Part shown: piece by piece, positions 59,828-59,990 of the stretch
How positions within the stretch are numbered: position 1 is the first letter of the stretch
Layout: every line of letters begins with the position of its first letter
DNA from: Flectobacillus major DSM 103
Lineage (GTDB): Bacteria; Bacteroidota; Bacteroidia; Cytophagales; Spirosomataceae
Assembly (NCBI RefSeq): GCF_000427405.1
Contig: NZ_KE386491.1
Location: 4,225,812 to 4,289,811, forward strand
Direction of reading: 5' to 3'
Length of the DNA: 64,000 nt
Position numbers and translations under genes: made by a program
Notes under the pieces: generated by a model
The model's database searches: none
What the model was told of the DNA's origin: nothing
What the model saw: only the letters and a program-made list of their open reading frames with translations

Positions 59828-59865
59828 AAAAAAAAACCTTTTCTCAGATGCTAAGTGAGAAAAGG
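59828..59865 (-). terminator. Attenuator terminator in the leuA leader
   Basis: On the minus strand CCTTTTCTCA (59865-59856) pairs perfectly with TGAGAAAAGG (59846-59837), loop 9 nt, followed by a run of nine Ts (59836-59828). It ends 64 bp before the leuA start. Confidence 0.92.
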
Positions 59866-59887
59866 CTTTTGGAATTACGCAAAATAT

Positions 59888-59910
59888 CCTTTATCTCACA
59901 CAAGTGCGAG
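59888..59910 (-). promoter_or_regulatory. Antiterminator and protector segments of the leuA attenuator
   Basis: TGAGATAAAGG (59898-59888) matches the terminator 3' arm TGAGAAAAGG except for one extra T, so it can pair with the terminator 5' arm instead. CTCGCAC (59910-59904) can pair with GTGTGAG (59901-59895), masking that segment. The antiterminator begins at the leader stop codon. Confidence 0.82.
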
Positions 59911-59955
59911 GAGTTGAATAATCAATAAAGTGTTTTTTGTGTATTTATTTTTCAT
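59896..59955 (-). CDS. Leader peptide of leuA attenuator, 19 residues
   Basis: The ORF reads MKNKYTKNTLLIIQLLALV and then TGA. Eight of the last ten residues are Leu, Ile or Val, including five Leu codons (TTA, TTG, CTC, CTC, CTT), two Ile and one Val. It lies between a consensus promoter and a strong terminator, and its stop codon sits inside the antiterminator arm. Slow translation under leucine shortage would let transcription proceed into leuA. Confidence 0.85.
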   Translation of the reverse strand: MKNKYTKNTLLIIQLLALV

Positions 59956-59959
59956 AATT

Positions 59960-59990
59960 CAAATGTATAAAAAAATATTTATTATCCAAA
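59960..59990 (-). promoter_or_regulatory. leuA promoter (-33/-7 type)
   Basis: On the minus strand TTTG (59990-59987), a 19-bp spacer and TACATTTG (59967-59960) match the Bacteroidota consensus TTTG-N19-TAnnTTTG. Transcription should start within a few bases of the leader ATG at 59955. Confidence 0.72.

Follow-up and report, generated by a model that had tools for sequence, protein, structure and literature searches.

How is leucine synthesis controlled in a bacterium whose 2-isopropylmalate synthase has no feedback domain? The question is raised by leuA in the 64-kb stretch of Flectobacillus major DNA analysed here, hereafter called the window (Table 1). HMGL-like and HCS_D2 are the only Pfam domains of its product, and the C-terminal regulatory (leucine-binding) domain of LeuA was not found in a Pfam domain search of the protein. 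Since the usual leucine-binding domain is lacking, a switch in front of the gene may be the main end-product control. The initial annotation had proposed such a switch, a ribosome-mediated attenuator of the classical design. The analysis reported below indicates that the leuA leader is very probably a transcription attenuator of this kind, controlled by leucine supply; the case is made of its parts, their conservation and covariation, the match between leader codons and pathway, and the computed geometry of ribosome stalling. The gene upstream of the leader is divergent, so that the terminator can only affect leuA; the gene downstream of leuA is convergent.

Table 1. Features of the leuA region in the window, and attenuator-like leaders at other loci
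Feature	Position	Strand	Remarks
leuA, 2-isopropylmalate synthase, 379 aa	58624..59763	-	matches 2-isopropylmalate synthase models
Intrinsic terminator CCTTTTCTCA(CTTAGCATC)TGAGAAAAGG + T9	59828..59865	-	arms 59865-59856 and 59846-59837; nine Ts 59836-59828; fold energy, covariation
Segment 3 GCCTTTTCTCAC	59855..59866	-	common to antiterminator 3' side and terminator 5' side
Antiterminator 5' arm (segment 2) TGTGAGATAAAGG	59888..59900	-	overlaps leader stop codon; energies, covariation
Protector hairpin CUCGCA(CUUG)UGUGAG	59896..59911	-	6 bp
Leader ORF MKNKYTKNTLLIIQLLALV	59896..59955	-	19 codons + TGA; TGA = 59898-59896
Bacteroidota-type -7 promoter box TACATTTG	59960..59967	-	consensus TAnnTTTG
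-33-like TTTG	59987-59990	-	19-nt spacer to TACATTTG
Palindromic operator-like copies TAGTCTTTTAATCTAAG, CAGAATTTTATTCTAAAA, TTAGACTATTTTTCTTTAA	60030..60125	-	putative regulator sites
Predicted second attenuator, same genome, upstream of ilvD-ilvB-ilvN	L082:8430-8554 (G000:C6)	-	leader MNISKLVNIVLVVILLSCIV
Leader MTYSVAILVWLNLLISKD + terminator before EamA/DMT transporter gene, same genome	G000:C6:3174604-3174685 (L175)
Leu-leader loci, Patescibacteria	L065, L066, L069, L072, L286, L288, L289		upstream of leu genes

A short ORF and competing hairpins precede leuA

Three of the proposed parts, all on the minus strand, are present as the initial annotation described them: a 19-codon ORF with branched-chain codons at its end, an antiterminator arm that begins at the ORF stop codon, and a perfect 10-bp terminator followed by nine Ts. 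The control codons of the ORF are Leu 10, 11, 15, 16 and 18 (TTA TTG CTC CTC CTT), Ile 12 and 13, and Val 19, which makes five Leu, two Ile and one Val in the last ten codons. Taken alone, the Leu enrichment of this leader is modest (5/18, p=0.02).

Only 4 nt separate the -7 box from the leader ATG, the G of the box sitting 5 nt before it. The offset of the box from the leader, -12, is identical in 5/5 leaders of the genus Flectobacillus, and TAnnTTTG, the consensus quoted for the Bacteroidota -7 box (PMC7366714), occurs in the 60 nt preceding nearly every Bacteroidota leader examined. Because the box lies so near the ATG, at a constant offset, the leader mRNA probably has little or no 5' UTR, if the promoter is used as the box would predict. 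In Bacteroides thetaiotaomicron, 5' UTRs shorter than 10 nt amount to only ~3.7% (PMC7366714).

The terminator hairpin, with its flanking A-T pairs, has a computed energy of -16.2 kcal/mol, and its T-tract ends 64 nt upstream of leuA. The first base of the antiterminator arm TGAGATAAAGG (59898-59888) is that of the leader TGA; the arm pairs with CCTTTTCTCA, leaving a single U bulged. The two folds were said to exclude each other, and they do have segment 3 in common, the final base of which falls in the terminator loop; the covariation and arm-swap energies given below support the antiterminator. In isolation the latter folds with -13.9 kcal/mol (z=-3.4), close to the terminator, and the whole leader folds far better than shuffled sequences (z=-5.2).

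The remaining part, a 7-bp protector of CTCGCAC and GTGTGAG, stands in modified form. The hairpin exists but is limited to 6 bp, because a seventh pair would leave a 2-nt loop; in addition, an outer stem had been missed, CUUUAU/AUAAAG, which surrounds the protector, involves the codons ACT-TTA-TTG upstream and bases after the stop, and thereby includes the first Leu codons. This outer stem may help the protector. The protector fold has z=-1.6 in the window and a mean z of -1.2 over 46 leaders and, by free energy alone, the antiterminator is the preferred fold of a leader that carries no ribosome, as long as segment 4 has yet to be transcribed, with the protector not clearly winning. A role for the protector stem in the leuA leader, where it would restore termination when translation is lacking, is thus weakly supported by the computed folds.

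The spacer between the antiterminator arms (59867-59887 in the window) often carries, there and in relatives, a T-rich TTTGyATA-like motif and a mini-hairpin, which might serve as a pause site or folding aid.

Computed stall positions fit a leader-peptide switch

To model the effect of translation on the leader, a ribosome was placed at one codon after another, with a polymerase that had not quite reached segment 4. The antiterminator keeps about -14 kcal/mol (-13.9) when the ribosome stands at Leu codons 10, 11 and 15, falls to -10.1 kcal/mol at Leu codon 16 and is reduced to -0.6 kcal/mol at the stop codon; the main run of control codons ends about where the antiterminator starts to be covered. 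The ilvD leader of the same genome and an Emticicia leader behave in the same way.

In the mechanism that these positions suggest, in which the use of the promoter, the stalling, the efficiency of termination and the role of leucine as the signal are all predicted, RNA polymerase would start just before the leader ATG. With charged Leu-tRNA plentiful, the ribosome would reach the UGA inside the antiterminator 5' arm and cover the arm; segment 3 would be left free, the terminator would form and transcription would halt before leuA. With Leu-tRNA scarce, the ribosome would stall at Leu codons 10/11 or 15/16, leaving the arm TGTGAGATAAAGG free to pair with segment 3 (CCTTTTCTCAC), which would prevent the terminator and allow leuA to be transcribed. 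In the model a stall at Ile12 or Ile13 likewise leaves the antiterminator intact and, like the mixed composition of the last ten codons, this would also suit a switch that answers to all three branched-chain amino acids, or to generally slowed translation, and not to leucine specifically.

Leader codons follow the pathway of the downstream gene

The occurrence of such leaders was assessed with a structural detector that requires a terminator, a strong antiterminator and a nearby ORF stop, and ignores amino acids. On both strands of the window it matches exactly once, at the leuA leader. Beyond the window, 1.62 Mb of this genome gave another 28 matches, the ilvD leader among them; most have no gene start close downstream and encode no biased peptide. 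A match with tRNA-like sequence (L304) was judged by eye and taken as a chance match.

The detector was applied to the regions preceding 129 leuA genes, most of them from the same family, and found the structure and ORF in 50, representing 19 genera. The last 14 residues of these leaders are 32% Leu, 7% Ile, 3% Val and 0.4% His, compared with a Leu share of 9% in the coding sequence of the window; examples are ..SLLLLLSFTV of Emticicia, whose leaders have a run of five Leu codons, MVQNLPLQLLLLSLSA, MANYLINRQNLLLLFTYS and MIINPNILSLILILGLLGVTG. The same detector yields 29% His and 6% Leu in hisG leaders (e.g. MQALVHIHHHHATATRVAVH and MKQFTHIHHHHTFP), and 21% Ile, 25% Val and 16% Leu in ilvD leaders (e.g. 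MNRNTSINLSLLDIISVVVVPSRA). That the codons match the pathway is the strongest argument for the leader peptide as the sensor. It also makes unlikely a switch that responds to the three branched-chain amino acids alike, or to slowed translation at large: the leuA leaders are Leu-dominated across the 19 genera, up to the five-codon run of Emticicia, and it is in the ilvD leaders that Ile, Val and Leu occur together instead. Control by leucine is accordingly the reading retained for leuA.

The attenuator is not found before every leuA. At some loci leuA directly follows a leuB-like coding sequence, so that no leader is expected, and it is absent altogether from the leuA upstream regions of Arcicella, Aquirufa and Pseudarcicella, though these are close relatives.

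The alternative stems covary

Covariation was computed on an alignment of 31 sequences. In the antiterminator 85% of the cells are paired, two-sided changes occur in 7 of the 10 pairs, and the covariation score was reached by none of 500 shuffles. The pairing is specific for its register, since sliding the register lowers it to 41-64%. The terminator, with 94% of cells paired, covaries as well; in many genera the antiterminator also takes in bases of the terminator loop, on which the terminator itself imposes no constraint. When energies were computed for 20 representatives with the terminator loop included, cognate antiterminator arms gave -17.2 kcal/mol versus -15.1 kcal/mol for arms swapped between genera (p=0.001), and over 46 leaders the antiterminator fold has a mean z of -3.3. 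Leader ORF, Leu codons and stems thus recur before leuA in 19 genera, and both alternative stems covary, with cognate antiterminators better than swapped ones; together with the codon-pathway match, this comparative evidence strongly supports the classical attenuation design that had been proposed.

Palindromes upstream of leuA

The palindromic copies upstream of the promoter are possibly sites of a transcriptional regulator that would act before the attenuator; the strict palindrome motif, in the window alone, is not above chance. Palindromes of the form TTAGAnTnnnAnTCTAA are repeated upstream of leuA in Arcicella, Aquirufa and Pseudarcicella (e.g. L003, L006, L013 and L043). Several copies are present in the leuA promoters of Arcicella and Aquirufa, where the attenuator is absent. 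Loose copies average 2.3 in attenuator-less loci versus 0.5 in loci with the attenuator (0.6 in the shuffled control), and it looks like attenuation has been swapped for a DNA-binding regulator between loci.

Could such a regulator control leuA in the window too, the hairpin being a constitutive leaky terminator and the ORF incidental? The palindromes present here, and more numerous in the attenuator-less relatives, speak for this idea, which is nevertheless very improbable: it leaves without explanation the coevolving antiterminator arms, the position of the stop codon at the antiterminator arm, and the codon-pathway match. A regulator bound to the palindromes may act in addition to the attenuator. 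A metabolite-binding riboswitch or a T-box in place of a translated leader has a negligible probability: both classes likewise use alternative terminator and antiterminator folds, but an Rfam search of the leader region gave no family at threshold (all matches with E<=10 lay far below the gathering scores), no conserved ligand core was seen, and the codon run is the recurring feature outside the stems.

Relation to known attenuators

That leu and ilv operons of proteobacteria are controlled by leader-peptide attenuation is textbook knowledge. The leuA leader resembles the leuL, ilvL and ilvB leaders of gamma-proteobacteria, such as that of the E. coli leu operon, in its short ORF with a run of end-product codons, its competing antiterminator, its U-tailed terminator and the same-pathway gene downstream. 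It differs from them in being compact (~128 nt from leader ATG to the end of the T-tract), in having its stop codon inside the antiterminator arm and, at a TAnnTTTG promoter, a start predicted to be near-leaderless, and in preceding a single leuA, whose product is without the leucine-binding domain; it also has no Rfam match. Bacteroidetes/Chlorobi attenuators are said to have been mentioned by Vitreschak et al. in 2004. In Actinobacteria, the LEU element of leuA likewise comprises an ORF that lies upstream of the gene and contains a run of Leu codons (PMC1262725). Naville and Gautheret (2010) stated that, to their knowledge, nobody had shown leader peptides beyond Proteobacteria and Actinobacteria until their own case in Firmicutes. 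Within the phylum, the transcriptome of Flavobacterium psychrophilum, a member of another order, gave strong clues for leader-peptide attenuation before amino-acid biosynthesis operons, with hisG and pheA 5' elements conserved in the family; the main text of that study offers neither a leuA example nor a sequence model or covariation (PMC9723704). No closer Bacteroidota report was found in the open-access literature, where absence is weak evidence.

The attenuator class is therefore already known, and one Flavobacterium has given hints of it; the leader in the window is a well-supported new example. It brings a design familiar from textbooks into a phylum whose promoters differ and in which such switches are barely described, and suggests how leucine synthesis could be controlled where LeuA has no feedback domain. 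I lean, with some reserve, towards a broader view, in which leader-peptide attenuation (Leu, Ile/Val, His, Met/Cys) would be Bacteroidota-wide, present also in Patescibacteria, and exchangeable with promoter-operator control between close genera such as Flectobacillus and Arcicella. The 19 genera offer a compact, alignable set in which the gain, loss and replacement of attenuators can be traced.

Other attenuator-like leaders

The ilvD attenuator of the same genome is predicted to consist, besides its leader ORF, of the arm TGAGACGGG and the terminator AAAGACCTTTCTC/GAGAAAGGTCTTTT; palindromes AGCGAAnnTTCGCT lie upstream of it. The leader before the EamA/DMT transporter gene was looked for in relatives and not found there, and is unproven as a third attenuator.

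The most novel by-products of the search come from further afield. In at least seven genomes of Gottesmanbacteria-type Patescibacteria, leu genes are preceded by Leu-rich leaders that have terminator/antiterminator pairs; among the leader ORFs are MKNLFLLNLFLLLPGEF, MPGFSLLNLDLGLLLKA and MNMNLSNLSLLLLGEGEFVV, and the L066 locus also has a 10-bp protector-like stem, CTCTTAAACC/GGTTTGAGAG. These cases suggest that bacteria with small genomes, too, control genes by sensing starvation. The other by-product is a Met/Cys-rich leader in another family, seen in two genera (L403, which is the same gene as L217, and L405): the ORFs MNNTVVNKMMMCCKMPMCIPIYCCRK and MIRRICNMMMCMMGTGSAAHPIA lie ~400 nt before an O-acetylhomoserine sulfhydrylase-like gene and are followed by terminators with possible antiterminator pairing, which makes a sulfur amino-acid attenuator possible.
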